A stretch of DNA of 47,835 nt from an uncultured Granulosicoccus sp. (lineage in GTDB: Bacteria; Pseudomonadota; Gammaproteobacteria; Granulosicoccales; Granulosicoccaceae), in NCBI GenBank assembly GCA_937924505.1, contig CALDSR010000053.1:1-47835 (forward strand), written 5' to 3'. Of the stretch, positions 753 through 21,453 are shown piece after piece. A program made the translations under genes and the position numbers. The stretch's first letter is position 1, and every line of letters begins with the position of its first letter. The notes beneath the pieces are model-generated. The model was given only the letters and a program-made list of their open reading frames with translations, was not told the origin of the DNA and did not search any database.

Positions 753-764
753 CGACACATGCTC

Positions 765-4605: not shown

Positions 4606-4635
4606 TTGACGGCTCGCAAAGCACGAGGATACAAT
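4606..4635 (+). promoter_or_regulatory. candidate sigma-70 promoter for iolE
   Basis: The sequence reads TTGACG at 4606-4611, an 18-bp spacer, and TACAAT at 4630-4635. The palindromic operator begins 5 bp downstream of the -10 box, so it would cover the transcription start. That fits repression by a LacI-family protein. The iolE start codon is about 120 bp further on. Confidence 0.6.
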
Positions 4636-4654
4636 GAAATGCAACCGGTTGCAA
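4626..4654 (-). promoter_or_regulatory. candidate sigma-70 promoter for iolDCB-aldolase operon
   Basis: Read on the minus strand, TTGCAA (4654-4649), a 17-bp spacer and TATCCT (4631-4626) resemble a sigma-70 promoter. Its -35 box lies inside the palindromic operator. One bound repressor could therefore silence both divergent operons. The -10 match is moderate. Confidence 0.45.
4640..4653. promoter_or_regulatory. LacI-family operator, perfect 14-bp palindrome
   Basis: TGCAACCGGTTGCA is a perfect palindrome with a central CG and fits the LacI/GalR-family pattern TGNAANCGNTTNCA. An identical 14-mer lies at 21428-21441, upstream of the sugar ABC binding protein. The only LacI-family gene in the window (17297-18295) sits in that operon and is the likely regulator of both. 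Confidence 0.8.
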
Positions 4655-4755
4655 AGAGTCGCTCGACGACCCGAAAGTGTCGCGAGAGGTACGCTGGAGC
4701 CACGTTTCCCTCCTTTTTCCTGACTATCCTCAGGGCCTTTACTCAGGTCAAGACT

Positions 4756-5649
4756 ATGACGATCAGAATTGGCAACGCGCCATGCTCTTGGGGCGTCGAA
4801 TTTGCAGACGATCCGCGCAACCCGAGCTGGCAATCCGTGCTCAAGGATTGCCACGATGCCGGCTATACCGGCATTGAGCTGGGCCCGGTAGGCTACATGC
4901 CGGAGGACCCGGAATTGCTCGCTGAAGCACTCGCCGAGAACCAGCTTGAATTGATTGGCGGCGTGGTGTTTCGCGCCTTTCACGATCCGGCGCAATGGGA
5001 CGATGTCCTCGACGGCACACATCGAACCTGCAAGGCGCTGGTTGCCCACGGTGCCAGGCATTTTGTTCTGATCGACTCGATCTCCCCACGCCGTGCGCCC
5101 ACCGCAGGTCGCGCTCGTGAAGCCGAACAGATGGATGACGCTGAGTGGACCGCCTATCGAGACCGCATCGCAACAGTTGCGAAGATCGGCGCAGAAGAAT
5201 ATGGACTCATACCGGAAATACATCCGCACGCCGGTGGCTTTATGGATTTCGAACCGGAGATTGAACGCCTGCTTGCTGAAGTCGATGACAGCATTCTGAA
5301 GATCTGCATTGACACCGGGCATTGCACCTATGCGGGCTTTGATCCCGTGGCCTTTATGGAACGTCATATGAATCGCATCAGCTATGTGCACTTCAAGTCC
5401 ACCGATGCAAAGATCAAAGCAGCTGCCATTGCCAATCGCACCGGTTTCTATGACGCCTGTGGCCAAGGTATCTTTTGCAATCTCGCCGATGGCGAAGTCG
5501 ATTTCCCCAAAGTCCGCCAATTGTTACTCGAGACAAACTTTGAGGGTTGGTGCACGATTGAACAAGACTGCGACCCGACCCTCGACATCGATCCACTGCG
5601 AGACGCGAAGGTTAACCGCGAATACTTGCAGTCCATCGGATTCAACTGA
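4756..5649 (+). CDS. iolE: inosose dehydratase IolE
   Basis: This 297-residue TIM-barrel enzyme of the xylose-isomerase-like family removes water from scyllo-inosose to give the trihydroxycyclohexane-dione used by IolD. The N-terminus IGNAPCSWGVEF is the IolE signature. The metal-site region includes IPEIHPHAGGF, CIDTGHCTYAG and YVHFKSTD. The start is placed at 4756 because an upstream in-frame ATG at 4606 would put the promoter and operator inside the gene and add 50 non-conserved residues. It is followed 25 bp later by the Gfo/Idh/MocA gene and is divergent from iolD. Confidence 0.94.
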   Translation: MTIRIGNAPCSWGVEFADDPRNPSWQSVLKDCHDAGYTGIELGPVGYMPEDPELLAEALAENQLELIGGVVFRAFHDPAQWDDVLDGTHRTCKALVAHGARHFVLIDSISPRRAPTAGRAREAEQMDDAEWTAYRDRIATVAKIGAEEYGLIPEIHPHAGGFMDFEPEIERLLAEVDDSILKICIDTGHCTYAGFDPVAFMERHMNRISYVHFKSTDAKIKAAAIANRTGFYDACGQGIFCNLADGEVDFPKVRQLLLETNFEGWCTIEQDCDPTLDIDPLRDAKVNREYLQSIGFN

Positions 5650-5674
5650 TCAATCTAGCAATTAACGATATCTC

Positions 5675-6835
5675 ATGAGCAAAAAACTCCAGTGGGGAAT
5701 GATTGGTGGCGGTGAAGGCAGCCAGATTGGCCCCGCCCATCGCCTGGGTGCGGGTCTCGACGGCTTGTTCGAATTTACCGCCGGCGCACTTGATCATCGT
5801 CCGGAGGAAGGTCGCGCCTATGCACAGCGTTTAGGTCTTGCCGCCGACCGTGCCTACGGCAGCTGGCAGGACATGCTCGAAGGCGAACGTAATCGCGATG
5901 ACCGAATCGATCTGGTCACGGTTGCCACACCCAACTCGACACACTTTGAAATCACCAAGGCGTTTCTCGAAGCCGGTTTCAATGTCTTGTGCGAAAAGCC
6001 GATGACCATGACGGTCGATGAAGGTGAACAGATCGTGCGTCTGGTCGAATCAAGCAAACAGATTTGTGCCGTTAACTATGGATACTCCGGCTACTCTCTG
6101 GTTCGACATATGCGTTCGATGATCGCCCGCGGTGATCTCGGTGCAATCCGCGTAGTTAACGCCGAGTTTGCACACGGCCACCATGCCGATGCTGCAGATG
6201 CCGATAATCCACGCGTACGTTGGCGGTATGATCCGAAGCAGGCAGGCGTCTCGGCACAGTTTGCAGATTGCGGTATTCACGCCATGCATATGGCAAGCTT
6301 TGTCACCGGTCAGGAAGTCACAAAATTGTCTGCCGACATTGCGTCTTGTATCAGTTCACGTGAGCTCGAAGACGACGCCATGGTCAACTTCCGAATGGAT
6401 GGGGGTACGATCGGTCGTCTTTGGACCTCCTCGATTGCGATTGGACGTCAGCACGGACTAACCATTCAGGTCTTTGGTGAAAAAGGTGGGCTTCGCTGGT
6501 CTCAGGAACAACCGAATCAGTTGTACTGGATGCCCTTGAACGAACGCCTGCAGGTTATTGAACGTGGTGAAGCAGATTTGTCACCGGAAGCCGATCGCAC
6601 AACACGGGTAACCATCGGTCATGCCGAAGGGATGCCACTGGCCTTTGCCAATATCTATAAAGATTTGGCAGAAGTCATCGACGCGAAAAACAAAAACCGA
6701 CCCGTCGACCCTGCCGCTGATTTGTACCCGCGTGCCAGCGATGGTCTTCGATCGATGGCAGCCGTTGCCGCGGTGGCTGATTCAGGCAAGCAAGCGGCCG
6801 CGTGGGTAGATGCTCGGCCACCAATGTATCGGTGA
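5675..6835 (+). CDS. Gfo/Idh/MocA family dehydrogenase, probable inositol or inosose dehydrogenase
   Basis: This 386-residue protein has an N-terminal Rossmann fold with MIGGGEGSQIG near residues 9-19 and the family's CEKPMTMTVDEG segment near 107-118, whose Lys is the usual catalytic lysine. Further on, DCGIHAMHM carries the usual catalytic His. Members oxidise or reduce sugars and cyclitols with NAD(P). It follows iolE by 25 bp, and no other IolG candidate is in the window. It may therefore supply the first step, myo-inositol to scyllo-inosose, or act on a scyllo- or chiro-inositol isomer. The exact substrate cannot be read from sequence. It ends 22 bp before a convergent gene. Confidence 0.8.
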   Translation: MSKKLQWGMIGGGEGSQIGPAHRLGAGLDGLFEFTAGALDHRPEEGRAYAQRLGLAADRAYGSWQDMLEGERNRDDRIDLVTVATPNSTHFEITKAFLEAGFNVLCEKPMTMTVDEGEQIVRLVESSKQICAVNYGYSGYSLVRHMRSMIARGDLGAIRVVNAEFAHGHHADAADADNPRVRWRYDPKQAGVSAQFADCGIHAMHMASFVTGQEVTKLSADIASCISSRELEDDAMVNFRMDGGTIGRLWTSSIAIGRQHGLTIQVFGEKGGLRWSQEQPNQLYWMPLNERLQVIERGEADLSPEADRTTRVTIGHAEGMPLAFANIYKDLAEVIDAKNKNRPVDPAADLYPRASDGLRSMAAVAAVADSGKQAAAWVDARPPMYR

Positions 6836-6857
6836 CCGACGACACTTCTCGGACAAA

Positions 6858-8357
6858 TCACAAAAAGTGCTTGAGCGCCGCGGTGGTTCCATCTTTCCAG
6901 ATCATCGTTAACCAGCGCTCAAACGGTGCGGCAAAGGCTGCTTCCTCGCATAGCTCACCATAGAATTGCTTTTGTTCTATCCAGACACGCGGATTGGACC
7001 GCGCATCTTTGGCGGCAGCGACCAGCGATTCCCAATTCGGGTCGTTGGCCTCGATCAGGCTACCGTCTTCACGGGTGCCCTCGCACATGCGCGCCCAAAG
7101 TGCTTCAACCAGTGCAAGTCCTTCAACCGATGCGCCTGCGTTCAAGGTATCACGCACAATCGGCAGGACAAAACCGGCATGACGAGATGAACCATCGAAA
7201 GCCACACGCCGTGTCGTATCGACAATGGCGGGATTGCTGAAACGAGTTGCGATCAGATCTATGTATTGTTCAGCGGTCATCTCCGGCACGGCATTGACGG
7301 TTGGCGCGATCTCCTCTGACTCGACCTTATGAAAGAAGGCTGATACAAGCGGGTGTGCCATGCAACCAGCAATGGTATCGACAGACAGCAGCTCACCTGC
7401 GTTTGCTAATACTTGATGACCTGCATTGAGAATGCGCAGCTTCATCGTTTCATAGTCATGAATGCTGTCCCGGAAGCTCGCCCCGGCGAGATTCCAGTCC
7501 GGGCGTCCCGCGCAGAAATTGTCTTCCAACACCCACTGCCTGAAATTTTCATGGGTAACCGGCGCGGCATCATCAATACCGACACTTTTGGCCAAGGCTA
7601 TTTCTTGGTCCCCGGTTGCCGGAACAATACAGTCAACCATCGCATTGGGAAATGTTGTATTGGCGTCAATCCAGTCGGCAAGGTCAGGGGCACTCAGACG
7701 AGCAAGACCGACAATGGTTCGACGCAAGATATCGCCATTCCCCTGAAGATTGTCACAACTTTGACCGGTGAAAGAAACAACGCCATTGTCTTTGCGGTTT
7801 TTCAACGCGGCGACCATTGCGCCAAATGCCGTTCTCGGTGTGGCCGGGTTTTCCGCGTCATGGCGGATATCGGCGTGTGAGGTATCAAGCTCACCGGTAT
7901 CCGGATCAATGAAGTAGCCGCCTTCGGTAACGGTCAGGCTGACAATGCGTATCGCGGGATCCGACATGGTTTTGATCAAGGCCGCGTTACCTTCCTCAAC
8001 CGGCAGAAAGTCGATCATCGAGCCAATGACCTCAAGCGACTGACTGGCAGGATCGAGTTCGATTAGTGTAGTGAGGCAATCCTGAGCCAGTAATTTTTCA
8101 CGCATTGCCGCATCTGCTGAACGGACACCGGCACCGATGATGGCCCAATCATGCGCGTCCCCGGTCTGCATGAGCCGGTGCAGATACCAGGACTGATGAG
8201 CACGGTGGAAATTACCGAGGCCAATATGTACGATACCCGGTTTGAGCGTCGAACGATCGTAGCGAGGTACCACGACCCCTTCGGGCAGTGCGTCAAGCGC
8301 ATCGTTGGACAAACTGACCGGGTCTGCATTGCTCGCTTTTTTTGTCAGCTCATCCAT
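6858..8357 (-). CDS. mtlK: mannitol 2-dehydrogenase (polyol-specific long-chain dehydrogenase)
   Basis: With the ATG at 8357 the protein is 499 residues, the normal length for mannitol 2-dehydrogenases, which oxidise D-mannitol to fructose with NAD. The N-terminal cofactor domain shows IVHIGLGNFHRAHQ. The catalytic helix KLRILNAGH places Lys306, Asn311 and His314, matching the Lys-Asn-His set of the family. The start overlaps the end of smoS by 13 bp, so the two are cotranscribed and probably coupled. A further in-frame start 8 codons upstream lies inside smoS and is less likely. A second, more divergent paralogue is at 13780. Fructuronate reductase or arabinitol dehydrogenase activity is possible, but the smo context favours mannitol. 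Confidence 0.85.
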   Translation of the reverse strand: MDELTKKASNADPVSLSNDALDALPEGVVVPRYDRSTLKPGIVHIGLGNFHRAHQSWYLHRLMQTGDAHDWAIIGAGVRSADAAMREKLLAQDCLTTLIELDPASQSLEVIGSMIDFLPVEEGNAALIKTMSDPAIRIVSLTVTEGGYFIDPDTGELDTSHADIRHDAENPATPRTAFGAMVAALKNRKDNGVVSFTGQSCDNLQGNGDILRRTIVGLARLSAPDLADWIDANTTFPNAMVDCIVPATGDQEIALAKSVGIDDAAPVTHENFRQWVLEDNFCAGRPDWNLAGASFRDSIHDYETMKLRILNAGHQVLANAGELLSVDTIAGCMAHPLVSAFFHKVESEEIAPTVNAVPEMTAEQYIDLIATRFSNPAIVDTTRRVAFDGSSRHAGFVLPIVRDTLNAGASVEGLALVEALWARMCEGTREDGSLIEANDPNWESLVAAAKDARSNPRVWIEQKQFYGELCEEAAFAAPFERWLTMIWKDGTTAALKHFL

Positions 8358-9118
8358 TGGCCACCATCCACGTTGTAGCACTGCGCGACTATATAGTCAG
8401 CTTCATCGCTGGCAAGAAAAACCGCCATGCCTGTTAAATCGTCCGGTTGCGCCATTCGACCAAACGGGACGCCCTGATCGACCTCGCGCTTTTTCTCACC
8501 CGGGGCCTTGCCTTCGAGTCGCGCAAATTGTGCGTCCACGCCTTCCCAGTGCTCACCGTCAACCACCCCGGGCGCAATGGCGTTGACGTTGATACGATGT
8601 TTGATGAGATCAAGCCCGGCAGACTGCGTCAAACTGATGACTGCGGCTTTGGTCGCACAGTAAACACCCACCAGTGGCTCACCTCGCCTGCCCGCCTGAC
8701 TCGCCATATTGATGATCTTGCCGCCTTGACCTTGCGCAATCATCAACCGCGCAGCCGCCTGCATGGTAAACAGGGTTCCAGCAACGTTGATAGCAAAGGC
8801 TCTCGTGTAGTCGTCCCGGCTTATGTCAACAATAGGGTCAGCGGTAAACACAGCTGCATTGTTGATCACTATATCGAGACCACCCAAGGTATCGGCGGCT
8901 TGCGCGACGCCGGCCTCGATACTTGACTGTTCGCTGACGTTCATTTCTATCGCGGTGGCTGGCGATCCAATGTCGTCCGCGGCAGCCTTTGCGCGGTCAA
9001 TATCGATATCAGCCATCGCGACCTTCGCGCCTTCACGCACATACCGTTGCGCAAAGGCCAGACCGATACCACGCGCTGCACCTGTTATAAGTACCCGTTT
9101 ACCGCTCAGTCGCGTCAC
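8345..9118 (-). CDS. smoS: sorbitol dehydrogenase, SmoS-type SDR
   Basis: This 257-residue classical short-chain dehydrogenase has TGAARGIG at 12-19, INNAA at 85-89 and the catalytic set Ser140, Tyr153, Lys157 (YCATK). Segments such as SQAGRRGE, GVYCATKAAVISLTQSAG and VDGEHWEGVDAQF closely match the sorbitol (L-iditol 2-) dehydrogenase SmoS/PolS of alphaproteobacteria, which oxidises D-sorbitol to fructose. It is the first gene of a minus-strand pair with the mannitol dehydrogenase and is divergent from the smoE transport operon. Catabolism and uptake of hexitols are thus encoded back to back. Confidence 0.9.
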   Translation of the reverse strand: MTRLSGKRVLITGAARGIGLAFAQRYVREGAKVAMADIDIDRAKAAADDIGSPATAIEMNVSEQSSIEAGVAQAADTLGGLDIVINNAAVFTADPIVDISRDDYTRAFAINVAGTLFTMQAAARLMIAQGQGGKIINMASQAGRRGEPLVGVYCATKAAVISLTQSAGLDLIKHRINVNAIAPGVVDGEHWEGVDAQFARLEGKAPGEKKREVDQGVPFGRMAQPDDLTGMAVFLASDEADYIVAQCYNVDGGQWMS

Positions 9119-9556
9119 GTTAAACTGCCTCCTGCCCTAAAAGTTAAACATAATCATCTGCACGACCAGTCACACACGCTGTATCATTCAGGCGCGGTCT
9201 GGCTCACCATCTGCGTTAAACGGTGAACTGGTCGGTAGTGACTTTCATTAGACAAATCAATGAAGTCAGGTTAAAGATTCAACCTTACGCACACGGATTT
9301 ATCGACTACGGTAAACGATACCGTTCGCAGTTTTGAATCCGTCCGAGCGAATCCAGCAATTCGCCTTACATTTTAATCACGTCTGGATGCTCTTTTTTGA
9401 CAACTACGTGTTTATATTCCAAAAAAAGAGAAGAAAGACTTAATATTTTGATAAAAACGTATGTGAAATTGTTAGAATCGTATTTGCCCGCAAAATTGAA
9501 TTCATACAAATTAGAAGGTCGGCAAACAACTTGTCCATTAGTTTCCTGGAGGAAAT
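9119..9556. promoter_or_regulatory. divergent control region between smoS-mtlK and smoEFG operons
   Basis: This 438-bp non-coding gap separates two divergent polyol operons. It becomes AT-rich towards smoE. It holds a short inverted repeat ACGGTA-N5-TACCGT at 9308-9324, a possible regulator site. TTGATA at 9448-9453 with TAGAAT at 9473-9478 (19-bp spacer) is a weak promoter candidate for smoE. The AraC-type regulator at 12890 is the natural candidate to act here, but I could not define its direct-repeat sites. Confidence 0.45.
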
Positions 9557-10843
9557 ATGAAATTAGGTTTGAAATCGGCTCTTGCCCTTGCAGTTGGGGT
9601 CGCTACCGCGACAACAGCTTCTGCAGCGGACGAGCTAACAATCGCGATCGTGAACAACGGTCATATGATCAACATGCAGAAAGTCGCTGAAGCCTACACG
9701 GCTGAAACCGGCGTAAAACTCAATTGGGTTTCACTTGAAGAAGGTGTTCTGCGTGAGCAGGTAACATCTGATACAGCAACCGGTGGTGGCCAATACGACA
9801 TCATCAACATCGGTATGCAAGAAGCTCCTATCTGGGGTGCTGCTGGCTGGATCGAGCCACTAACATTTGGTGCTGACTACGACGTTGATGACATCCTTCC
9901 TGCGATGCGGGCTGGTCTGTCTCACGACGGAACGCTTTACGCGGCTCCTTTCTATGGTGAGTCTTCAATGGTCATGTACCGCAAGGACCTGACTGACGCT
10001 GCTGGCGTAACCATTGGCGACAACGACTCTTGGGATAATGTCAAAAAAGCAGTTGCTGCTATCCATGATCCAGACAATGGCGTTTATGGCGCATGTCTGC
10101 GTGGCAAGCCGGGCTGGGGTGACAATGGCGCATTCATCACGACTGTTGCCAACTCATTCGGTGCTGCCTGGTTAGACAAGGACGGACGTCCTCAACTCGA
10201 TTCTCCTGAGTGGAACGCAGCGGTTAATTTCTACGTTGATCTTCTCAGCACTTACGGACCTCCGGGATCAGAAGGTAACTCTTTCAACGAAATCCTGGCT
10301 CTGTATAACGAAGGCAAATGTGGTCTGTGGATCGATGCAACCATTGCGGCTTCATTCCTCGAAGTTGACGGCGTAGCTTACGCACAGTCGCCTAATGCGG
10401 GTAACCCGGTTGGCGCGAACTGGCTGTGGGCCTGGGCAATGGCAGTACCTGCAGGTTCGCCAAATGCCGCAGCGTCAATGCAGTTCATCGAGTGGGCAAC
10501 TTCTAAAGACTACGTACAAGCTGTTGGTAACCACCCAGACTTCGGTTGGGCTAAAGTTCCAACTGGCCAACGTGCCTCTACGTATGCCATTCCTGAATTC
10601 CAGGCAGTTGCAGGATTTGCAGAAGCAGAAATGGCAGCAATCGATTCAGCCGCTCCTGAAGCAACTGATCTGAAGCCTTACCAAGGCGTTCAGTTTGTCG
10701 CTATTCCTGAGTTCCCTGAAATCGGTAGCGCATTTGGTCAAGAAATGGCAGCAGCCCTTTCTGGCGCCAAGACGGTAGAAGCTGCGCTTGCAGCAGCTCA
10801 AGAAGCCGCGACTTCAATCTTGAGAGAAGCTGGCTATTTCTAA
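9557..10843 (+). CDS. smoE: sorbitol/mannitol ABC transporter substrate-binding protein SmoE
   Basis: This 428-residue family 1 solute-binding protein starts with a Sec signal peptide (about residues 1-23, cleaved after TASAA). It continues with the conserved body of hexitol-binding proteins: INIGMQEAPIWG, APFYGESSMVMYRKD, GKPGWGDNGAF and GLWIDATIAASFLE. It binds sorbitol or mannitol in the periplasm and delivers it to SmoF/SmoG. A strong GGAGG ribosome site lies 5 bp before the ATG. Codon choice is biased towards GCT/GGT-type codons compared with its neighbours, as expected for an abundant binding protein. A terminator follows, so this gene should be expressed in excess of the permeases. Confidence 0.92.
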   Translation: MKLGLKSALALAVGVATATTASAADELTIAIVNNGHMINMQKVAEAYTAETGVKLNWVSLEEGVLREQVTSDTATGGGQYDIINIGMQEAPIWGAAGWIEPLTFGADYDVDDILPAMRAGLSHDGTLYAAPFYGESSMVMYRKDLTDAAGVTIGDNDSWDNVKKAVAAIHDPDNGVYGACLRGKPGWGDNGAFITTVANSFGAAWLDKDGRPQLDSPEWNAAVNFYVDLLSTYGPPGSEGNSFNEILALYNEGKCGLWIDATIAASFLEVDGVAYAQSPNAGNPVGANWLWAWAMAVPAGSPNAAASMQFIEWATSKDYVQAVGNHPDFGWAKVPTGQRASTYAIPEFQAVAGFAEAEMAAIDSAAPEATDLKPYQGVQFVAIPEFPEIGSAFGQEMAAALSGAKTVEAALAAAQEAATSILREAGYF

Positions 10844-10882
10844 GGTCTTGTCCAGGACTTTAAATCAGCTTTAGTAAAAATT

Positions 10883-10920
10883 AAAGGCTCGGTGGAAAAC
10901 ATCCCACCGAGCCTTTTTTT
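10883..10920 (+). terminator. strong rho-independent terminator/attenuator after smoE
   Basis: A perfect 13-bp stem pairs 10883-10895 with 10904-10916 around an 8-nt loop and runs into a continuous T tract (10914-10920). It lies between smoE and smoF in one operon. It probably gives high smoE and low smoFG transcript levels by partial termination and by protecting the smoE 3' end. Confidence 0.9.
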
Positions 10921-11041
10921 ACCAAGATATAAAATTCGATCATTGATTTAAACCAGGTTTTGTACCGCCTACAGCAGGCTCGATTCTTAGGTACCTTTAA
11001 ACCAATGTGTTGCCACAAAATTTGTAAGGTTTAAAATATCC

Positions 11042-11986
11042 ATGGCCACCAAAAGAACGATTCCCCGCTTATTGCAAACACCAGCCGTCATTTTGCTGCT
11101 TCTTTGGATGTTGGTTCCATTGAGCATGACGCTATATTTCTCATTCATCCGTTATGTTCTGAACAATCTTCGCAGGCCCGAATGGACCACTCCCAGCTTC
11201 AGTAACTGGCGCGGGTTCGGAAACTACGAATACGTTTTATTTCACGCCAGAGATTTCTGGTTCGCTGTACAAAACAGCCTGTTCATTGTTGTCAGTATTC
11301 TCATCCTGACCGTCCTGTTGGGTCTGGCCCTCGCGATGCTTGTCAACCGATCGTTTCCCGGGCGCGGCATTGTCCGTGTCTTGCTCATATCACCCTTCTT
11401 TGTCATGCCAGCGGTTAACGCCGTACTTTGGATCAACATGATCCTTGACCCGGTGCTGGGCCTCAACGGACTGGCTGTCGATGGCATAAACGCTATCGTT
11501 GCAGGCCTCAGGGACTTTCCGATATTAGGGCACTTTTTCTCACTATGGCCTGAAATCAAACCGGTGTCATTTCGCGCAACGCAAACCTCAGCGTATGCGG
11601 TCATTATCATGGTGACCTGGCAATGGACACCGTTCGCCATACTGATCTTCATGACGTCATTGCAGTCGGAAGATGAAAGTCAAAAAGAGGCCGCTATTCT
11701 TGACGGTGCCAACGCCTGGTCACGATTTCGCAATCTGACGGTACCGCACCTGGCACGACCAATAGCTATCGTTGTGATGATTCAATCGATTTTTCATCTC
11801 TCGCTGTATGCCGAGATCGAAATTGTCAGTCGCGGTAACGGCAACAAGAATCTGCCTTATCTGATCGGCGAATTCACGTCCAATAACATTGGTGCCGCCA
11901 GCGCCGCTGGCATCTTCGCCGTAATTCTTGCCAACATCGTAGCGATATTCCTTCTGCGTATGGTCGGCAAGAATTTGATGGATTAG
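11042..11986 (+). CDS. smoF: sorbitol/mannitol ABC transporter permease SmoF
   Basis: This 314-residue inner-membrane permease of the MalF type has a first membrane span near residues 14-36 and several further hydrophobic spans. The cytoplasmic EAA loop reads EAAILDGANAWSRFRNLTVP (about residues 219-238) and docks on the ATPase. It pairs with SmoG, which starts 10 bp after its stop. A 198-bp gap with the terminator separates it from smoE, so it relies on read-through or its own promoter. I see no strong Shine-Dalgarno just before the ATG. Confidence 0.9.
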   Translation: MATKRTIPRLLQTPAVILLLLWMLVPLSMTLYFSFIRYVLNNLRRPEWTTPSFSNWRGFGNYEYVLFHARDFWFAVQNSLFIVVSILILTVLLGLALAMLVNRSFPGRGIVRVLLISPFFVMPAVNAVLWINMILDPVLGLNGLAVDGINAIVAGLRDFPILGHFFSLWPEIKPVSFRATQTSAYAVIIMVTWQWTPFAILIFMTSLQSEDESQKEAAILDGANAWSRFRNLTVPHLARPIAIVVMIQSIFHLSLYAEIEIVSRGNGNKNLPYLIGEFTSNNIGAASAAGIFAVILANIVAIFLLRMVGKNLMD

Positions 11987-11996
11987 GAGACTGATC

Positions 11997-12833
11997 ATGG
12001 CAACAGTAGCGCAATCTTCCCGTTTCGGAAAAGTGTTCTGGCCCCTCTTGGCTTGGGTTATTGCACTGATCTTTTTCTTCCCGATCTTCTGGATGATATT
12101 CACCAGTTTCAAAACGGACGCCGATGCTGTTAAACCTGAGTTTCTTTTCAAGTTCAAACCGACACTTGAGAATTACCTCAACATGACCGATAACTATGAC
12201 TACTGGCGCTTTGCCATCAACTCAGTCATCACATCGGTATTTGCAACCTCTCTGGCGCTCGTTGTTGGTATACCGGCAGCCTATGCCATGGCCTTCAATC
12301 CCAGCCGCCATACCAAAGACATTCTTGTCTGGATGCTATCGACAAAAATGCTCCCGGCTGCCGCAGTGCTTTATCCGATGACATTCCTGACCAAGAATTT
12401 TCTGGGCATTTTCGACACGCATTTTCTGGTCATCCTCGTTCTTTGCCTTATAAATCTACCTATCGTGATCTGGATGCTGTTCACGTACTTCAAGGAAATT
12501 CCGAAGGAGATCATCGAGGCAAGCAAAATGGATGGCGTCACGACCTGGGGCGAAATCAAGGACATCCTGATCCCGCTTGCCTGGGGCGGTGTGGCATCGA
12601 CGGCACTTCTGACGTTCATATTCTGCTGGAATGAAGCCTATTGGACGGTGCGCCTGACGACCACAGAGGCGGCAACCTTGTCGAAGCTGATCGAAGGTAA
12701 CCGTGCGCCCGAAGGCTTGTTCTTTGGCCGACTATCAGCCGTATCGACGGCCGCTGTCGGGCCGATCATTGTTCTCGGTTGGTTCTGCCAAAAGCAGTTG
12801 GTGCGCGGCTTGACGTTCGGAGCCGTCAAGTGA
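11997..12833 (+). CDS. smoG: sorbitol/mannitol ABC transporter permease SmoG
   Basis: This 278-residue MalG-type inner-membrane permease is the usual length for the family. Six hydrophobic spans are apparent, the first near residues 15-36. The EAA loop EIIEASKMDGVTTWGEIKDI is present before the last two spans. The end GLTFGAVKG-like tail (GLTFGAVK) is typical of the MalG group. It forms the transport channel with SmoF. It begins 10 bp after smoF with a GGAG ribosome site. Confidence 0.9.
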   Translation: MATVAQSSRFGKVFWPLLAWVIALIFFFPIFWMIFTSFKTDADAVKPEFLFKFKPTLENYLNMTDNYDYWRFAINSVITSVFATSLALVVGIPAAYAMAFNPSRHTKDILVWMLSTKMLPAAAVLYPMTFLTKNFLGIFDTHFLVILVLCLINLPIVIWMLFTYFKEIPKEIIEASKMDGVTTWGEIKDILIPLAWGGVASTALLTFIFCWNEAYWTVRLTTTEAATLSKLIEGNRAPEGLFFGRLSAVSTAAVGPIIVLGWFCQKQLVRGLTFGAVK

Positions 12834-12889
12834 TACTCGATGTACCTTCGACTACCACCGTTTCGACGTCCTAGTGTTCAGTTAGCTAT

Positions 12890-13783: not shown

Positions 13784-15201
13784 ATACCACGGTACCCGGA
13801 CTGATAACCGCCACCACGTATGACAGATCAAGCTGTCAGGTGGGTGTTGTTCATTTAGGCTTCGGCGCGTTCCATCGTTCGCACCAGGCAGTCTATCTGG
13901 ACGACTACATGGATACCTCGGGCGATCTTCACTGGGGTATCGCGGCGGTCAATCTACGTGCGTCTGAAGCGGAACATTTCAAAGTCACTATCGACGATAT
14001 CGAACGTCACGATGGATACTTTTTAAAGTCATACTCAGCCGACGGCAATTCTGGACTACGTCGCGTACGAAGCCATGTTCGTTTCGCCGATTGGACCGTA
14101 GCACCCACCGAAACCGAAGCGTTACTGTCATTATCTTCCGTACAGTTGGTGACCATCACGGTAACCGAAAGCGGCTATTACACCGACCCTGATGGTCAAC
14201 TGAATCTTTCCGACCCGACGATCAAGGCGGAAATTTCAGGAGAAATAGCCGAAAGTGTCTACGCCTATTTACGCGCCGCGATTACCAAACGCGTTGCAGC
14301 AAGCAATGAAAAGCTGACGATTGCCTGTTGTGACAACATTAGACAAAACGGCAAAATGCTGCGCCATAACCTGCTTGCCTATCTCAATGCCTGCAATGAG
14401 TCAGACTTGGCAGGCTGGGTTGAAAATAACGTCACCTTTCCCTGCTCCATGGTTGATCGAATAACACCACGTAGCCCGGCTGAACTGTCCAGCGAGATTT
14501 CAGCGATGGTTGGAAAAACCGTCACCTCCCCTGTCATGGCAGAGGATTTTTCCCAATGGGTTCTGGAATCAAAGGCCGCAACCAGCATGCCCGAGCTTGC
14601 CAAGGTTGGCGTAACGGTCACGGCAGACGTTGACGCCTACGAAGAAACCAAGATCCGCGTACTCAACGGCGGACATACCTCGCTTGCCTACTTGGCCGCA
14701 CTGGAAGGTGTTGAGACATTTGACGCCGCCATGCGAGTTCCTCATCTGTTGGAACATTTCCAGAGTTTTGAAACAAAAGAAGTGCTGCCAGCGATAACGC
14801 TAAGCCTTCCGTTCTCAAAAGATGAATACTTGCAAAAGATCATTCTACGCTTTGGCAATACTGCCATTGGTGACACCGTAGCCCGCATCTGCGCTGATGG
14901 TATGGTGAAGTTCCCGATATTCATTCGCCCGACGCTTGAAGGGTGTTTGCAACAAGGAATCATTCCTGTTTATGCAATCCGCAGTATTGCCAGTTGGCAC
15001 GTCTTCGCAAGCCACGTGGATGCAGGCAATATTGGGTTTGACTATCACGAGCCCAGTTGGAACGACCTGAAAGCAATGCTGGGAACAGACGCTTTCATCA
15101 CAAGTCGTCAGCTTTGGGGCGAATTGCCCGCGACTTACCCCGAATTCGCCGATACGTTACGGCATGAAATTAAAGAGATGGAGTCAAAATGGCCAATCTG
15201 A
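13780..15201 (+). CDS. second mannitol dehydrogenase-family oxidoreductase (mannitol or arabinitol dehydrogenase)
   Basis: This 473-residue polyol-specific long-chain dehydrogenase has a cofactor domain motif VVHLGFGAFHRSHQ and a catalytic helix KIRVLNGGH placing Lys291, Asn296 and His299. It is clearly divergent from the 6858-8357 paralogue in length and in loop sequences. A different substrate such as D-arabinitol, or a different cofactor preference, is therefore plausible. Its start overlaps the AraC stop by 4 bp, and its end overlaps the ATPase gene by 13 bp, which places it firmly in the transport operon. Confidence 0.82.
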   Translation: MNTTVPGLITATTYDRSSCQVGVVHLGFGAFHRSHQAVYLDDYMDTSGDLHWGIAAVNLRASEAEHFKVTIDDIERHDGYFLKSYSADGNSGLRRVRSHVRFADWTVAPTETEALLSLSSVQLVTITVTESGYYTDPDGQLNLSDPTIKAEISGEIAESVYAYLRAAITKRVAASNEKLTIACCDNIRQNGKMLRHNLLAYLNACNESDLAGWVENNVTFPCSMVDRITPRSPAELSSEISAMVGKTVTSPVMAEDFSQWVLESKAATSMPELAKVGVTVTADVDAYEETKIRVLNGGHTSLAYLAALEGVETFDAAMRVPHLLEHFQSFETKEVLPAITLSLPFSKDEYLQKIILRFGNTAIGDTVARICADGMVKFPIFIRPTLEGCLQQGIIPVYAIRSIASWHVFASHVDAGNIGFDYHEPSWNDLKAMLGTDAFITSRQLWGELPATYPEFADTLRHEIKEMESKWPI

Positions 15202-16226
15202 CGCTACGCAATGTACGCAAGAAGTATGGTGATGTCGAGGTCATGCACGGCGTCGACCTGGATATTGTAGACGGCGAATTTGTAGTGTTTGTCGGACCGT
15301 CTGGTTGCGGCAAATCGACATTGCTACGCATGATCGCGGGGTTGGAAGAGATTTCTGATGGAACGATTGCCATCGGCGATGTTGAAGTAAACGAAGTTCC
15401 CGCCTCCAAACGCGGCGTCGCGATGGTGTTCCAAAGCTACGCGCTTTACCCGCATATGACGGTTTACAAAAACATGGCCTTCGGCCTGAAGCAAGCCAAA
15501 ACTGATCCCGCCGAAATTGATCGACGTGTGCGAGATGCCGCCAGCATTCTCCAGATTACAGACTATCTCGACCGTAGCCCACGGAACCTCTCAGGCGGTC
15601 AGCGTCAGCGAGTTGCTATCGGTCGCGCCATTGTCCGAGACCCGGAAGTCTTCCTCTTCGACGAGCCCTTATCGAATCTTGATGCAGCCTTGCGCGTTCA
15701 GACACGTCTGGAAATCGCACGTCTGCATGAGCGGCTTGCCACAACCATGATTTATGTAACACACGACCAGGTCGAGGCGATGACGCTTGCCGACAAAATC
15801 GTGGTGTTACGTGACGGCCGCATAGAGCAAGTCGGCTCACCGATCGATCTTTACGAACGCCCACAAAACGCCTTTGTCGCGCAGTTTATCGGTAGCCCGA
15901 AGATGAATTTTTTCTCGGCATCGGATCTGACGCCCGAAACCAGCACACTGCTGGGCAGAGAAGTCACCGCCAGCATGCAGGTCGGGTTTCGTCCTGAACA
16001 TCTGACCCTGTCCAATGGCAGTAACACGGTTGTTGAAGGCACACTGGAGCTTGTTGAGAATCTGGGCGAGTATGCCCTGGTGCATTTACTCACAGCATCC
16101 AAGGTTGAATTTATCGCCAAAACCGAAAAGCCGCCTGAAGTACCCAAAGGCTCAACAGTCAGTTTTGCGATCAAACCTGAGTTGGCACATTTCTTCGACC
16201 TTCGCTCTGGTTCACGAATCGAATAA
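15189..16226 (+). CDS. smoK: sorbitol/mannitol ABC transporter ATPase SmoK (MalK/UgpC type)
   Basis: This 345-residue ATPase drives the SmoEFG importer. Walker A is GPSGCGKST (about 37-45), the Q-loop is VFQSYALYPHM, the signature is LSGGQRQR, Walker B is VFLFDEPLSNLD and the H-loop is VTHDQ. The C-terminal TOBE regulatory domain (about 235-345) includes GFRPEHL. The start overlaps the preceding dehydrogenase by 13 bp with a GGAG ribosome site. It is the last gene of the plus-strand operon. The 91 bp to the convergent gene contain only short inverted repeats and no clear T-tract terminator. Confidence 0.92.
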   Translation: MANLTLRNVRKKYGDVEVMHGVDLDIVDGEFVVFVGPSGCGKSTLLRMIAGLEEISDGTIAIGDVEVNEVPASKRGVAMVFQSYALYPHMTVYKNMAFGLKQAKTDPAEIDRRVRDAASILQITDYLDRSPRNLSGGQRQRVAIGRAIVRDPEVFLFDEPLSNLDAALRVQTRLEIARLHERLATTMIYVTHDQVEAMTLADKIVVLRDGRIEQVGSPIDLYERPQNAFVAQFIGSPKMNFFSASDLTPETSTLLGREVTASMQVGFRPEHLTLSNGSNTVVEGTLELVENLGEYALVHLLTASKVEFIAKTEKPPEVPKGSTVSFAIKPELAHFFDLRSGSRIE

Positions 16227-16317
16227 GCGTTGACAGGCGCGGTGAAACGCCAGGGCTCGCCGTGCCAAAACTATAAAACAACACTGACGATAACCATGCA
16301 TTGCATGTATTGAGCTG

Positions 16318-17211
16318 TCACTTGACAGCAATCGGCACTCGCCCATCATCCATTCGATTGACCAGCGTTTCTGGCACGCCAAACGCTAATCCTGCGATCG
16401 CACCCAGTGCCATGGATCGACCACAGTTATCGCCGCCACAACGGATGTTATCCCGAACAACGGACTCGAAATCTTGCGCGTGATTGAGCAGATACCAGAT
16501 GACGGGAAAGGAGTGTTCCACATAACAAGCAAGGCCAAAACGCTTGGCAGTTTCCAGCGGATTGTATTGCTCAATCGCCAAGGCTTCTTTCATTAACTGC
16601 CCTACTTCTCCGTCCATGGCATCGGCTGACAGGCGCAAAGCTTCAGCTAACGTTTTCCCATCCGTGAGGTGTTGTAAACACTGCTGAACCGCCACCGCAC
16701 CTTCGAGCACATCCGCGTTAGTAGATATAACTTGAGCGGCCGTTTTGACGGTGTCGGCTGAATATCCAAACGCGAACAAGCCGGCTACAACACATATGGC
16801 AGGCATTTGATTGTCATCCATGCCACTTGGCTCGGCAATGTCCTCGCCTTCGCTGATCATGCGAGCGACGAGAATCTTGGTCGGCCGATCCGCATAACCG
16901 GAATAGTGGCCACAGGGTCCAAAGGCTTCGAAAAAACGTTGTCGGTGCAGTGCTGTCGAATACTCGCCGTCCGCAGCCAACTGTCCAACTATTCGCGCCG
17001 ACTCTCCGTAGTGCGATAATTGACCGCTACGCCGGGTCGCGTGCGCAAAGTACCCTCTTTTATCTTTGAAGACCGCGGCCTCAGGTTGGCGAAACAATAT
17101 ATCTCCGCAAGCCGCGACTGCTTTTATCTGATCTTGATCATACATCCAGTGCAAGCCCATCGTGGCTGCGTCTGCCACCAGCGTGCCGGCAAGTGCGTCG
17201 TACCCAGTCAT
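16318..17211 (-). CDS. ADP-ribosylglycohydrolase-like protein, J1-crystallin/SelJ type
   Basis: This 297-residue protein has the two ends of the ARH/DraG fold. The N-terminus GTLVADAATMGLHWMYD and the C-terminus RCGGDNCGRSMALGAIAG are closest in style to jellyfish J1-crystallins and fish selenoprotein J. DraG enzymes normally show a GGDTD-like motif that holds the metal. Here the second acidic residue is replaced, giving GGDNC (about 259-263), so hydrolysis of ADP-ribose is doubtful. It is the last gene of the ABC importer operon, 85 bp after the LacI regulator. A metabolic role linked to that importer is inference only. Confidence 0.75.
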   Translation of the reverse strand: MTGYDALAGTLVADAATMGLHWMYDQDQIKAVAACGDILFRQPEAAVFKDKRGYFAHATRRSGQLSHYGESARIVGQLAADGEYSTALHRQRFFEAFGPCGHYSGYADRPTKILVARMISEGEDIAEPSGMDDNQMPAICVVAGLFAFGYSADTVKTAAQVISTNADVLEGAVAVQQCLQHLTDGKTLAEALRLSADAMDGEVGQLMKEALAIEQYNPLETAKRFGLACYVEHSFPVIWYLLNHAQDFESVVRDNIRCGGDNCGRSMALGAIAGLAFGVPETLVNRMDDGRVPIAVK

Positions 17212-17296
17212 GGTGTCTCTCTCCCGTGTGTGACAGTGAATTCAGACAACGTGCTCTATCTGTCAGTGAATCGCTCATTAAACTTGTCTACCTGAC

Positions 17297-18295
17297 TTAC
17301 AACCTCGCCCGCAACGTCTTACGCTCCACGACCGAGCACGGGAACAAACGCGCCTCCGGATAACGATCCGGGTCATCCAGCATCGCAGCCACCAGTTCTA
17401 TTGAAGAACTGATAATTTGCTGGACTGGCTGTCGAATGGTTGTCAGCGCAATATTTTCCCAGCCCGCCATCTGCATATCATTTAGCCCGATTATGCCGAC
17501 ATCATCTGGCACCGACAGGCCTACTGCTTGTACCGCACTCAGCGCACCGATCGACAACACATCGTCTCCACAAAAATACGCCTCGGCAGGCGTCGACTCC
17601 AGTAAACGCGACATCTCGTTGCGGCCAGCGTCAAATGAATAAGCAGTGGCAAACGACACCGTAGCGCTGACCCCATCGTGCGATTTCAGCTCAGTCATAA
17701 ATCCCTTGTACCGATCCTGGGTGGACGTCGCCGACTCAGGCCCCCCGAGAAAGGCAATTTGACGATAGCCGCGAGCGACCAGTTCACGAACCGCGATCCG
17801 CCCGCATTCAACATTATCGATACCAACCACATGAACTGCAGGCGTGCTTGTATGCCGGCCAAACGAATGTACGACTGGCATATTGGCTTCACGAAAGGCT
17901 TCCGCGAATTCAGGCGTCAAGGTCGAAGATGCCACGATGACACCATCCACAGAATACTGACGCAACATTCTTACCGATTGCTCCGGATCCGTTTCATCAG
18001 ATAAATTGACCAGCAGCGGGCGTAATCCGCGGTCCTGCAAACCGCGTGTAAAGAGATCAAATACTTCCAGAAAAATCGGGTTATGGAAGTTATTCGACAC
18101 CAACCCTATCAATCGTGTGCGACCAGTGGTCAGACTCGATGCCAGCGCATTCGGAGCGTAGCCAAGTTTTTTCGCTGCGCGCTCAACTCGCTCACGCATC
18201 TTGTCCGACACCGACGCACCGTCGGTGAAGGTTCTGGATACTGCCGACGGTGATACACCCGCGGCATCGGCAACGTCCTTTAGCGTAATTGGCAT
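17297..18295 (-). CDS. LacI-family transcriptional regulator
   Basis: This 332-residue repressor has an N-terminal helix-turn-helix (TLKDVADAAGVSPSAVSRTF), the hinge region KKLGYAPNALASSL and a periplasmic-binding-type sensor domain (GLVSNNFHNPIF, GIDNVECG, GLNDMQMAGWENIALTTI). It follows the importer ATPase by 20 bp, so it is encoded inside the operon that it probably controls. The perfect LacI-type palindrome upstream of that operon recurs between iolD and iolE. It is therefore the best candidate for the inositol-responsive repressor of both, unlike the RpiR-type IolR of many alphaproteobacteria. The inducer is inferred. Confidence 0.9.
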   Translation of the reverse strand: MPITLKDVADAAGVSPSAVSRTFTDGASVSDKMRERVERAAKKLGYAPNALASSLTTGRTRLIGLVSNNFHNPIFLEVFDLFTRGLQDRGLRPLLVNLSDETDPEQSVRMLRQYSVDGVIVASSTLTPEFAEAFREANMPVVHSFGRHTSTPAVHVVGIDNVECGRIAVRELVARGYRQIAFLGGPESATSTQDRYKGFMTELKSHDGVSATVSFATAYSFDAGRNEMSRLLESTPAEAYFCGDDVLSIGALSAVQAVGLSVPDDVGIIGLNDMQMAGWENIALTTIRQPVQQIISSSIELVAAMLDDPDRYPEARLFPCSVVERKTLRARL

Positions 18296-18315
18296 TGGAA
18301 AATCACAGACAGCAC

Positions 18316-19101
18316 TTAGACAGTGCCGCCAAGCGACTGCTCAAGCTTGACCATTTCCTTGCCGCCGGCCATGAGATCCTGTAATTCTTCAACCGATACC
18401 TCACCCCGCACAGCCGTACCCAGCGTCTTGCCACGATTAAGCACCGTAAAACGGTTTCCGACGGCCATGGCGTGTCGGACATTATGCGTAATGAAGATGA
18501 CGCCAATACCATTCTTGCGCACCTTGTCGATCGTCGACAAGACATTGGCTGTTTGTCTCACACCCAGCGCGGATGTCGGTTCATCGAGAATTAACACCCG
18601 CGCACCGAAGTACACAGCGCGCGCAATGGCGACTGTCTGGCGTTCGCCACCGGATAAAGTCCCGACAGCCTGATCGGCTTCACGCAAATTGATTCCCATG
18701 CGAGCCATCTCTTCCATCGTGACGGCATTGGCTTTCTCGGTGTCGTAAAGCTTGAAAGGACCGAAACGCTTTTGCGGTTCACGGCCCATCCAGAAGTTGC
18801 GCGACACCGACATCAAGGGAATCATCGCAAGATCCTGGTAGACCGTCGCGATGCCAGCTTCGATAGCCGCTCTCGCGTTGGAAAATTGCACGGCCTTGCC
18901 GTCGACTCGTATCTCGCCACCGCTCGGCTGATGGACACCTGAGAGCGTTTTGATAAACGTGGACTTACCTGCACCGTTGTCACCTAAAAGACAATGACAT
19001 TCGCCCGGATTAAGTGACAAGGACACGCCTGCCAAAGCGATAACCGAGCCGAACTGCTTCTTGATGTCGACCATCTCGATTATTGGTGTATCCATGATCA
19101 T
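18316..19101 (-). CDS. sugar ABC transporter ATPase, single nucleotide-binding domain (FrcA-like)
   Basis: This 261-residue ATPase has one nucleotide-binding domain, unlike the fused RbsA/IatA type of about 500 residues. Its length and layout match FrcA. Walker A is GDNGAGKST (about 39-47), the signature is LSGGERQ, Walker B is VLILDEPTSAL, and ITHN carries the switch His. The ATG at 19101 overlaps the permease stop as ATGA. It energises the RbsC-type permease. The shared operator with the iol genes points to myo-inositol or a related cyclitol as cargo. Confidence 0.9.
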   Translation of the reverse strand: MIMDTPIIEMVDIKKQFGSVIALAGVSLSLNPGECHCLLGDNGAGKSTFIKTLSGVHQPSGGEIRVDGKAVQFSNARAAIEAGIATVYQDLAMIPLMSVSRNFWMGREPQKRFGPFKLYDTEKANAVTMEEMARMGINLREADQAVGTLSGGERQTVAIARAVYFGARVLILDEPTSALGVRQTANVLSTIDKVRKNGIGVIFITHNVRHAMAVGNRFTVLNRGKTLGTAVRGEVSVEELQDLMAGGKEMVKLEQSLGGTV

Positions 19102-20219
19102 CGCTCTCCGGTAATCATGCGGCGAATATACGTGTTGAGTATGACCGCGAGTAACAGGATACCGCCCAGAAATACCCGAAACAGAGAACTCTCTACATTG
19201 GCAAAGAACAATCCCTGTTGTACCACGCCAAAGATCAATGCGCCCAGCGCCGCCCCGATCACAGAGCCATAGCCACCGGTCAACAAGGCACCACCGATAA
19301 CCACGGAAATGATGGCCTCAAACTCCTTCAGGAGCCCGCGATCTGCCGCCGCTGAACCAAATTCCATGACCTGGCATGTCGCAAAGACGGTCGCACAAAA
19401 CGCGGTAAACATGAACATCAGTATTTTCACTCGTGCAACTGGCACACCCACGTAGCGAGCCGCCTGTGCGTCACCCCCAGATGCATAGATCCAGTTACCG
19501 AAGCGCGTGCGCGTCAATAACAAATGGCCAAAAATGATCAACAAAATAGCCCAGATAACCAGTGCGGGAATACCATCGACTATTGGCTGGCCAGCACGGG
19601 ATCCACCTTTGAATACGCTGATCCAACCGTTCTCGCCCAGCCAGGAAAAGAAGCCCTTGAGTACCTTGCCGCCAAACAGTGGCGCTAACCAATCCCCTTC
19701 AGCAGCATCCTTGACACCACCGATAATGGTTTTGTTGGTGGTCGTAATTGACAGAAAAATCGTCATGCCACGCAAGATGTACAAGAACGCCAAGGTCACG
19801 ATAAACGATGGCAAGCCGGTTTTAACAACGATGTAACCATTGAGCCAGCCAATGGAAATGCACACGGCGAACGATGTCAGGATGGCGATCCACATCGGAA
19901 ACTCCCAGGTCACCGACATCATCGCAATGACAATACCGGCAAAGCCGATCATTGAGCCGACCGACAAATCGAATTCGCCGGCGATCATCAGCAAGCAGGC
20001 ACCGACTGCAATGATCGCAAACTGGGCCGAGACAATCGTCCAGTTCAAGGTACCTTCGGACGAGAACATGCCGGAGTCTCTTGCCACCAGCAAGAAAAAG
20101 ACAAAGACCAGAATGGTTCCGCAGATCGAACCGAGTTCCGGCCGGATCATTGCGCGGGTAAAGGCCGATTGTTGTTTTACGCGTTCATCGGATTCAGCAG
20201 TTTGATTGGATTCACTCAT
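19098..20219 (-). CDS. sugar ABC transporter permease (RbsC/FrcC family)
   Basis: This 373-residue inner-membrane permease has a hydrophilic N-terminus of about 30 residues followed by many hydrophobic spans. The family motif AGEFDLSVGSMIG is visible at about 81-93, VKTGLPSFIVTLAFLYILRG follows, and GGALLTGGYGSVIGAALGAL lies near the C-terminus. A longer hydrophilic insert (about 170-215) separates the two halves. It lies between the binding protein gene, 165 bp upstream across two hairpins, and the ATPase gene, which it overlaps by 4 bp. Confidence 0.9.
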   Translation of the reverse strand: MSESNQTAESDERVKQQSAFTRAMIRPELGSICGTILVFVFFLLVARDSGMFSSEGTLNWTIVSAQFAIIAVGACLLMIAGEFDLSVGSMIGFAGIVIAMMSVTWEFPMWIAILTSFAVCISIGWLNGYIVVKTGLPSFIVTLAFLYILRGMTIFLSITTTNKTIIGGVKDAAEGDWLAPLFGGKVLKGFFSWLGENGWISVFKGGSRAGQPIVDGIPALVIWAILLIIFGHLLLTRTRFGNWIYASGGDAQAARYVGVPVARVKILMFMFTAFCATVFATCQVMEFGSAAADRGLLKEFEAIISVVIGGALLTGGYGSVIGAALGALIFGVVQQGLFFANVESSLFRVFLGGILLLAVILNTYIRRMITGER

Positions 20220-20261
20220 AGAAGGGTCGCCATAGCGTTAAAACGGGGGGCTTGAACGAAA

Positions 20262-20344
20262 TACGGCATCTGACAAGAAACTCGTCAGATGCCGTACAGA
20301 CAAACACTTGAATTTGCGCTGAACCCTTGCCACTCAAGGGTTCA
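20262..20344 (-). other. two hairpins between binding-protein and permease genes
   Basis: A perfect 13-bp stem pairs 20262-20274 with 20284-20296 (9-nt loop). A second 10-bp stem pairs 20320-20329 with 20335-20344. Neither is followed by a long T tract on the minus strand, so they are more likely mRNA 3'-end stabilisers or partial attenuators than full terminators. Their position after the binding-protein gene mirrors the terminator after smoE. Confidence 0.7.
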
Positions 20345-20384
20345 GAGAAACACATTCAACAATAAATGCGCTCAGGCGATCGCT

Positions 20385-21338
20385 CTAGCGATACTCGCCT
20401 GCAAACTCTTCAACCTTGCCCAGTGCATCAGCAGTAACAAAACCTGGGCCTGAGTTGATGTTGTTGCCGGGCAGTACACCAAAGCGATGGTAGTTCGCGA
20501 GCACAATTACCGGCAGATACGCCTGCAGGAACGGCTGTTGGTCGATACCCCAGACGATGGTGCCGTCTTTGATACCTTTAACAATCTCGGTGCCGAGATC
20601 AAACGTACCGAAGTAGATATCGCCCGCTTTACCCATTTCTTTCAGCGCATCGATTGTTGGATCAGCCGAAGTTGGTCCAAGCGTCAATACCGCATCAGTA
20701 TCCGGGTTGGCGGTCAGATAAGCTTTGACCTTGTTTTTGATCTCAGACGGATCCTGACCCGAATCGATCATCGAAGAACCCAGCTCGACACCAAGACCGT
20801 CCGCGAAACCAGAGCAACGCTCAGCAACTACCGGGTTTGAGATAACGTGATTGACACACAGGAAAGATCCCACACCGTCACGCTTTGCACGCATGCCAGC
20901 TGCAAGACCTGCATCATATTCAGGTTGTCCAACGTACATCAGGGCACCAACATCAGCGGCTTGCTCAGGTGTACCTGAATTGATGATGATGACAGGGATA
21001 CCCTTGTCAACCGCATTCCGGATAGGACCACTCAGTACGTCCGGGTCAGCCAAGGTTGTGATGATGCCATCAGGGTTTGATGCGGCAGCCTGCTCGATGA
21101 TCCGAGCCATGTCTGCGATATCCCCTGTTGGCGGATTGCGGTATTCAACGTTTGCGCCAACCTGCTCGCCCGCGAGTGCAATACCGTTCTTGATTGTGTT
21201 CCACCAGGAATCGCTATCGGGTGCGTGGCTGACGAGAATGAAATTCTCACCTTCTGCATGGGCCACACCGATAGAACCTGCCATTGGTAGAGCAGCAATG
21301 GCTGAAGCCACCGCTAACTTCTTCCAGGTAGATTTCAT
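20385..21338 (-). CDS. sugar ABC transporter substrate-binding protein (ribose/inositol-type)
   Basis: The protein is 317 residues from the ATG at 21338, which has a GGAGAGA ribosome site. A longer in-frame start at 21419 is rejected because it would bury the signal peptide. The signal peptide spans about residues 1-29, ending near VAHA-E. The mature protein has the type I periplasmic binding fold of family 2 sugar-binding proteins: LVSHAPDSDSWWNTIKNG, PDGIITTLADPDVL, KGIPVIIINSG and a late GTFDLG. The ligand is not visible in the sequence. Control by the operator shared with iolD/iolE makes inositol the best guess. Confidence 0.9.
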   Translation of the reverse strand: MKSTWKKLAVASAIAALPMAGSIGVAHAEGENFILVSHAPDSDSWWNTIKNGIALAGEQVGANVEYRNPPTGDIADMARIIEQAAASNPDGIITTLADPDVLSGPIRNAVDKGIPVIIINSGTPEQAADVGALMYVGQPEYDAGLAAGMRAKRDGVGSFLCVNHVISNPVVAERCSGFADGLGVELGSSMIDSGQDPSEIKNKVKAYLTANPDTDAVLTLGPTSADPTIDALKEMGKAGDIYFGTFDLGTEIVKGIKDGTIVWGIDQQPFLQAYLPVIVLANYHRFGVLPGNNINSGPGFVTADALGKVEEFAGEYR

Positions 21339-21427
21339 ATCGTCTCTCTCCTCGTTTATTTGATTTTGTCCGACAAATTTCGGAATTGAAATTATGCGAG
21401 CGCCGGTGCCTGCATGCAAGCATTTTT

Positions 21428-21453
21428 TGCAACCGGTTGCATATTTTATTCTA
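21428..21453 (-). promoter_or_regulatory. second copy of the LacI-type operator with adjacent -10 box
   Basis: TGCAACCGGTTGCA at 21428-21441 is identical to the operator at 4640-4653. On the minus strand TAGAAT (21453-21448) lies 6 bp upstream of it, much as TACAAT lies 4 bp upstream of the iolE copy. The operator would cover the transcription start of the importer operon. No convincing -35 box is seen. Confidence 0.8.

Follow-up and report, generated by a model that had tools for sequence, protein, structure and literature searches.

A 14-bp palindrome as the probable LacI operator joining inositol uptake and breakdown in an uncultured Granulosicoccus and its relatives

The stretch of DNA analyzed here (the window) is 47,835 nucleotides from an uncultured Granulosicoccus sp. 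(contig CALDSR010000053.1) and carries genes for inositol breakdown, a sugar importer and a LacI-family regulator, together with two copies of a 14-bp palindrome, TGCAACCGGTTGCA. Sequence comparisons make it very likely that the LacI protein of the window (gene at 17297-18295) uses this palindrome as its operator; the protein would jointly govern inositol uptake and breakdown. Both copies are exact and lie where a first-pass annotation of the window had placed them (Table 1). A spacer of 83 bases parts operator 1 from the start of iolD (4556) and one of 102 bases from the probable ATG of iolE (4756), and operator 2 is 89 bases from the ATG of the binding-protein gene (21338). We found no third copy in the window at up to three mismatches, and TGCAACCGGTTGCA is the only repeated one among the three perfect 14-bp palindromes present. 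It is an even palindrome with a CG centre, a feature described for LacI-family operators in the parts compared of Ravcheev et al. (2014; PMC4052901). A further perfect 14-bp palindrome, TCATTTCGAAATGA, is found at 26906-26919.

The placement of the palindrome is strongly conserved. As relatives we took the best 80 loci among the matches listed in a search of genome contigs with the LacI protein (75-81% identical), whose titles name alphaproteobacteria (Roseobacter, Ruegeria, Shimia, Hoeflea and others) and Granulosicoccaceae. These loci and the window hold 141 exact copies, for which the nearest searched gene is catabolic in 72 cases and an importer gene or lacI in 69, as assigned among tblastn matches to the query proteins, with the iolE query trimmed at its N-terminus. 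None of the 141 lies inside a searched gene, and all 141 sit at catabolic or uptake genes, a distribution across genomes that, together with the co-occurrence of LacI and site described below, supports the LacI-type inositol regulon proposed in the annotation. Per sequence (n = 81), both kinds of copy are present in 65, a catabolic copy only in 7, an importer copy only in 4, and neither in 5. Copies with one or two mismatches occupy the expected place in L052 (both sites), L067, L077, L013 and L059, and several other loci lacking a copy end at contig ends.

Operator copies were also counted across the relatives' whole genomes. Exactly two are present in 66 of the 78 genomes reached via the 80 LacI loci (14 + 46 + 18); nine genomes have one copy, and none, three and five copies are found in one genome each. 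A whole-genome scan had been suggested with the first-pass annotation, with many unrelated copies named as the outcome that would speak against a regulon, and this is not what the scan of the relatives' genomes returned. The genome with five operators (G022; L097, L098 and L012) also has lacI in two paralogous copies (77 and 66 percent) and two iol clusters.

The site also follows the regulator in two wider samples, one of 149 genomes from the Ruegeria-containing family (that of G012) and one of 48 genomes from the Granulosicoccus family (that of G002). In the first sample, genomes were called LacI-positive on a match at E 1e-80 or better, with up to 14 candidates scored per genome. LacI and site occur together in 42 of the 149 genomes, LacI only in 3, the site only in 1 and neither in 103 (Fisher 3e-32); the corresponding counts in the 48 genomes are 33, which includes every LacI-positive genome, then 0, 6 and 9 (Fisher 3e-6), both values being uncorrected for kinship. 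Within the protein, the DNA-binding part varies less than the remainder (mean majority share 0.92 vs 0.85 in 81 sequences), and one branch of the LacI tree (Shimodaira-Hasegawa-like approximate likelihood ratio test, SH-aLRT, 94) parts the window and 20 Granulosicoccaceae-labelled loci, two of them titled only Chromatiales, from the other 60.

Joint control is further supported by genomes in which the catabolic and importer genes lie on different contigs, since the sites remain at inositol genes. In G057, G049 and G139 the two copies are on separate contigs, with the first placed at the iol promoter and the second at an importer, and in G139 lacI is on a third contig. We examined 20 extra site-bearing contigs, a set chosen to include the six genomes of the 48 that have the site only, G145, and contigs whose copies are unlinked. 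The site is at iol catabolic genes in ten and at a sugar importer in eight; on one (L135) it is beside a Gfo/Idh gene and the assignment is ambiguous, and on the last (L126, from G145) it is inside a SPOR-domain gene.

The two operators differ in their relation to the predicted promoters. At site 1, a predicted sigma-70 promoter directed toward iolE ends 4 bases before the operator; a loose -10 pattern is found at that place in 65 of the 72 catabolic sites, with the hexamer ATACAA in 42. The annotation had put a -10 box 4-6 bp upstream of both operators. This holds at site 1, where TACAAT is 4 bases off and relatives retain a -10-like element. At site 2, boxes exist in the window (TAGAAT, seen by eye, and TAAAAT, which stops 1 base short of the operator) but are not conserved, and no -10 box at a fixed place upstream of the operator was seen in 19 hand-chosen Granulosicoccaceae importer sites. 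The candidate importer promoter instead starts 8 bases downstream of operator 2. At its exact spacing, 13 of the 19 sites have CATAAT, one has CATACT and five have neither. The layout of operator, 8 bp, TTG-type -35, 17 bp and CATANT is present in 16 of the 48 Granulosicoccus-family genomes (39 with the operator) and in none of the 149 Ruegeria-family genomes (43 with the operator). With the -10 box set at -12 to -7, operator 2 would probably lie at about -57 to -44, just upstream of the -35 box. Tandem operators were considered at this promoter, given that the -35 box resembles a half-site, but they are not claimed because the best downstream 14-mer has 3-8 mismatches across the 19 sites.

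We propose that both copies, the one within the divergent iolD/iolE promoter region and the one ahead of the importer-lacI operon, are bound by a LacI dimer. As long as inositol is absent, LacI would keep both units down and with them its own gene, lacI being part of the importer operon. Once inositol or an early catabolite builds up, LacI would be released, and uptake and breakdown would be turned on together. At site 1 the operator would lie over the likely iolE transcript start, the classic blocking position. At site 2, since the operator is probably just upstream of the -35 box, repression would act through occlusion of the upstream region.

Several observations weigh against this simple scheme. 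Simple repressors do not usually have their operator upstream of the -35 box, where that of site 2 probably lies. Three of the 45 LacI-positive genomes in the 149-genome sample are without an exact site. Copy numbers are also less regular in the wider samples: two copies are present in 27 of 43 site-positive genomes among the 149 (one in 9, three in 5, four in 1 and five in 1) and in 23 of 39 among the 48 (one in 14, three in 2). Many of these genomes are broken assemblies, and two is still the commonest number. Finally, a third copy in G060 (L099:6023) lies between genes for a fatty-acid desaturase and a GntR/FCD regulator, and a copy in G145 (L126) lies inside a SPOR-domain gene in a genome in which no LacI orthologue was found.

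We weighed four other explanations. The idea that the palindrome recurs by chance, for which its short length is the only argument, deserves practically no credence: it is already contradicted by the conservation, a first-order model of the window predicts about 0.0004 exact copies in a stretch of this length and about 0.04 in 5 Mb, and the reversed pattern occurs in only 1 of 78, 1 of 149 and 1 of 48 genomes. It is very improbable that the sites are bound by a different LacI-family protein whose gene lies elsewhere in the genome. LacI-family operators are indeed alike, that of PtxS differing at two positions, and the genomes carry further LacI-like candidates in first-look counts; against this, the present orthologue is found in 42 of the 43 site-positive genomes of the 149, and the site is missing in 103 of the 104 without the orthologue.

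Two further alternatives leave both sites to this LacI. In one, the effector and cargo would be a relative of myo-inositol, such as rhizopine, scyllo-inositol or chiro-inositol, or a pathway intermediate. The rhizopine profile NF052284 matches the window binding protein at 277 bits and that of the importer at L021 at 362 bits, and the Gfo/Idh enzyme scores low against IolG (66 of 355 bits). Both rhizopine scores are under the cut-off of 420, iolD and iolC are above their cut-offs, and the best sequence and fold match of the window binding protein is 4RU1, described as a myo-inositol transporter, so we regard this alternative as unlikely, if the least unlikely of the four. The structure model of this binding protein, made with an alignment of 40 binding proteins, had a predicted local distance difference test score (pLDDT) of 83, and a lone-sequence model (pLDDT 41) was not used. 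LacI-family proteins are mostly repressors, and we consider it a little less probable again that this one represses the catabolic promoters but activates, or otherwise acts differently, at the importer promoter. This is proposed because the operator there is upstream of the -35 box, as in the 16 Granulosicoccus-family genomes, vs just downstream of the -10 box at catabolic sites, and IpsA, a LacI-type protein, is described as an activator of ino1 in the part of PMC3899939 compared. The layout is, however, absent from the 149 genomes sampled of the other family and missing at five of the 19 chosen importer sites, and the transcript starts are predictions. Repression at both sites, relieved by inositol or an early catabolite, is the preferred explanation.

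The importers behind the operator are of three types, all CUT2-like and only distantly related. The window importer is of type A. Its permease shares about 27-29% identity with those of type C and its ATPase 35-38%, and 4YO7 is the nearest match to the binding protein in two type C examples; in the intermediate type (L021), the binding protein, permease and ATPase are about 42%, 49% and 73% identical to those of the window. Behind the 16 copies of the promoter layout we counted 13 importers of type C, two of type A and one intermediate, using tblastn with query proteins from the window, L002, L021 and L054; one of these (L149) was typed as C from its TIM-barrel gene alone. Type A importers of the roseobacter group are mostly divergent from lacI with one operator between them (53 exact cases) and are without the layout, which argues that the control cassette goes with the host family and not with the importer. 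We tentatively suggest that Granulosicoccaceae retained the cassette (operator, 8 bp, -35, 17 bp, -10) unchanged while importers were exchanged among three lineages of one transporter superfamily, and that the same LacI acts on this promoter from its upstream side, in contrast to the catabolic site with its operator just downstream of the -10 box. Transfer of the window importer from alphaproteobacteria was also considered: the window and L033 group with L039 (SH-aLRT 98), but a tree grouping all alphaproteobacterial type A importers together was not rejected (approximately unbiased test, p-AU 0.36), so we claim neither transfer nor a direction of exchange. In most type C operons seen, a TIM-barrel (AP_endonuc_2) gene, at L002:769-1587 for instance, is the first behind the operator.

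The inositol locus of the window is itself split. On the minus strand are the aldolase gene, iolB, iolC and iolD, followed by operator 1 and then iolE and the Gfo/Idh gene on the plus strand; after the sorbitol/mannitol block come, on the minus strand, the genes for an ADP-ribosylglycohydrolase, LacI, the ATPase, the permease and the binding protein, with operator 2 upstream. The gap between lacI and the Gfo/Idh gene is 10,468 bp, the largest of 74 sequences, vs a median of 55 bp and at most 600 bp in 62 of the 74. A 10.5-kb sorbitol/mannitol block therefore splits a normally contiguous locus, as in none of the 80 relatives' loci. The annotation was right that a sorbitol/mannitol locus lies between the two parts, but the importer it called distant belongs to a locus that is usually contiguous. 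At 45% identity or more, sorbitol/mannitol genes are absent from the 80 loci except for smoK-like ATPases in L015, L052 and L061. Within the block (6858-16226) are genes for two same-family polyol dehydrogenases, an SDR, an AraC regulator and an importer.

Table 1. Positions of the operators, predicted promoters and genes in the window
Feature	Position	Strand	Remarks
Operator 1, TGCAACCGGTTGCA	4640..4653	none	Exact match; between divergent iolD and iolE; same place in relatives
Operator 2, TGCAACCGGTTGCA	21428..21441	none	Exact match; before importer operon
Predicted sigma-70 promoter toward iolE, TTGACG-18-TACAAT	4606..4635	+	Ends 4 bases before operator 1
Candidate importer promoter, TTGCAT-17-CATAAT	21391..21419	-	Starts 8 bases downstream of operator 2
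Class II aldolase (IolJ-like), cut by window edge	3..758	-	TIGR01859 206 bits, below cut-off 343
iolB-like isomerase	847..1689	-	TIGR04378 144 bits, below cut-off 205; PF04962 KduI/IolB
iolC, 5-dehydro-2-deoxygluconokinase	1702..2724	-	TIGR04382 324 bits, cut-off 300
iolD, trihydroxycyclohexanedione acylhydrolase	2685..4556	-	TIGR04377 811 bits, cut-off 715
iolE-like dehydratase	4756..5649	+	TIGR04379 169 bits, below cut-off 290; ATG 4756 preferred over TTG 4606
Gfo/Idh/MocA oxidoreductase	5675..6835	+	PF01408, PF22725; IolG profile 66 of 355 bits
Sorbitol/mannitol block, including ADP-ribosylglycohydrolase gene	6836..17296	none	Splits inositol locus in window
LacI-family regulator	17297..18295	-	PF00356 56 bits, PF13377 101 bits; directly behind ATPase gene
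Single-domain CUT2-type ATPase, 261 residues	18316..19101	-	One PF00005 stretch
CUT2-type permease	19098..20219	-	PF02653
Sugar-binding protein, 4RU1/MocB-like	20385..21338	-	Sequence and fold match

The gene content of the window agrees with the remaining claims of the annotation. Of the 35 window proteins scanned, this one alone has a LacI-family helix-turn-helix; AraC, LysR and TetR types are the other regulators found. The iolB and iolE products fall short of their profile cut-offs but hit the expected families. The protein has the two domains expected of the family, the N-terminal helix-turn-helix (PF00356) and a periplasmic-binding-like effector domain (PF13377), and its gene begins 20 bases past the ATPase gene, which places it inside the importer operon as stated. 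The ATPase is indeed single-domain and part of a CUT2-type importer; the name FrcA-like came from the annotation, and the likeness concerns domain layout alone. None of the window proteins scanned is clearly an inositol 2-dehydrogenase; this enzyme may be encoded outside the window, or it may be the Gfo/Idh/MocA enzyme at 5675-6835. As in the window, an aldolase gene follows iolB in L054. The ADP-ribosylglycohydrolase-family gene (16318-17211) is 85 bases behind lacI in the same orientation and may be co-transcribed with it; in the 80 loci nothing matches it at 45% identity or above. Elsewhere in the window (28336-32353, minus strand), Pnkp-type (PNKP ligase, phosphatase, kinase) and Hen1-type RNA-repair genes are adjacent.

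One exact operator, usually present twice per genome, predicts a complete pathway of uptake and breakdown, and importers of unknown cargo that lie behind the site could therefore be given inositol, or a compound closely related to it, as their substrate. The system also offers a means of testing how an importer can change without loss of control, and whether one LacI acts in two ways at two operators.

LacI-type inositol regulators (IolR) are an already known kind, and importer exchange behind a fixed control cassette is the less usual part of the system. We found no description of the operator TGCAACCGGTTGCA in the literature searched, a body that leaves most subscription journals outside it. 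Inositol is tabulated with seven LacI groups by Ravcheev et al. (2014; PMC4052901), and these IolR groups share with our system a LacI-family protein, an even palindrome with a central CG and a local sugar regulon; the parts compared contain no inositol motif or importer exchange. The Caulobacter IolR regulon, in the part of PMC2597717 compared, likewise has one motif that connects iol genes at separate places with an ABC importer for inositol, but that motif, GGAA-N6-TTCC, has no exact match in the window; the comparison is one of motifs. PtxS of Pseudomonas, a LacI-family repressor, binds the 14-bp operator TGAAACCGGTTTCA near the -10 box, according to the part of PMC5902321 compared. It shares the AACCGGTT core and the position near the promoter start, and differs in its effector (2-ketogluconate), its targets (kgu/gad) and two operator positions. 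The LacI-type IpsA of Corynebacterium is freed from DNA by myo-inositol, its effector, but activates genes for inositol-lipid synthesis, as described in the part of PMC3899939 compared, where the system here would control catabolism and uptake. PtxS thus sets a precedent for the operator core, and IpsA one for a LacI-type protein with inositol as its effector.

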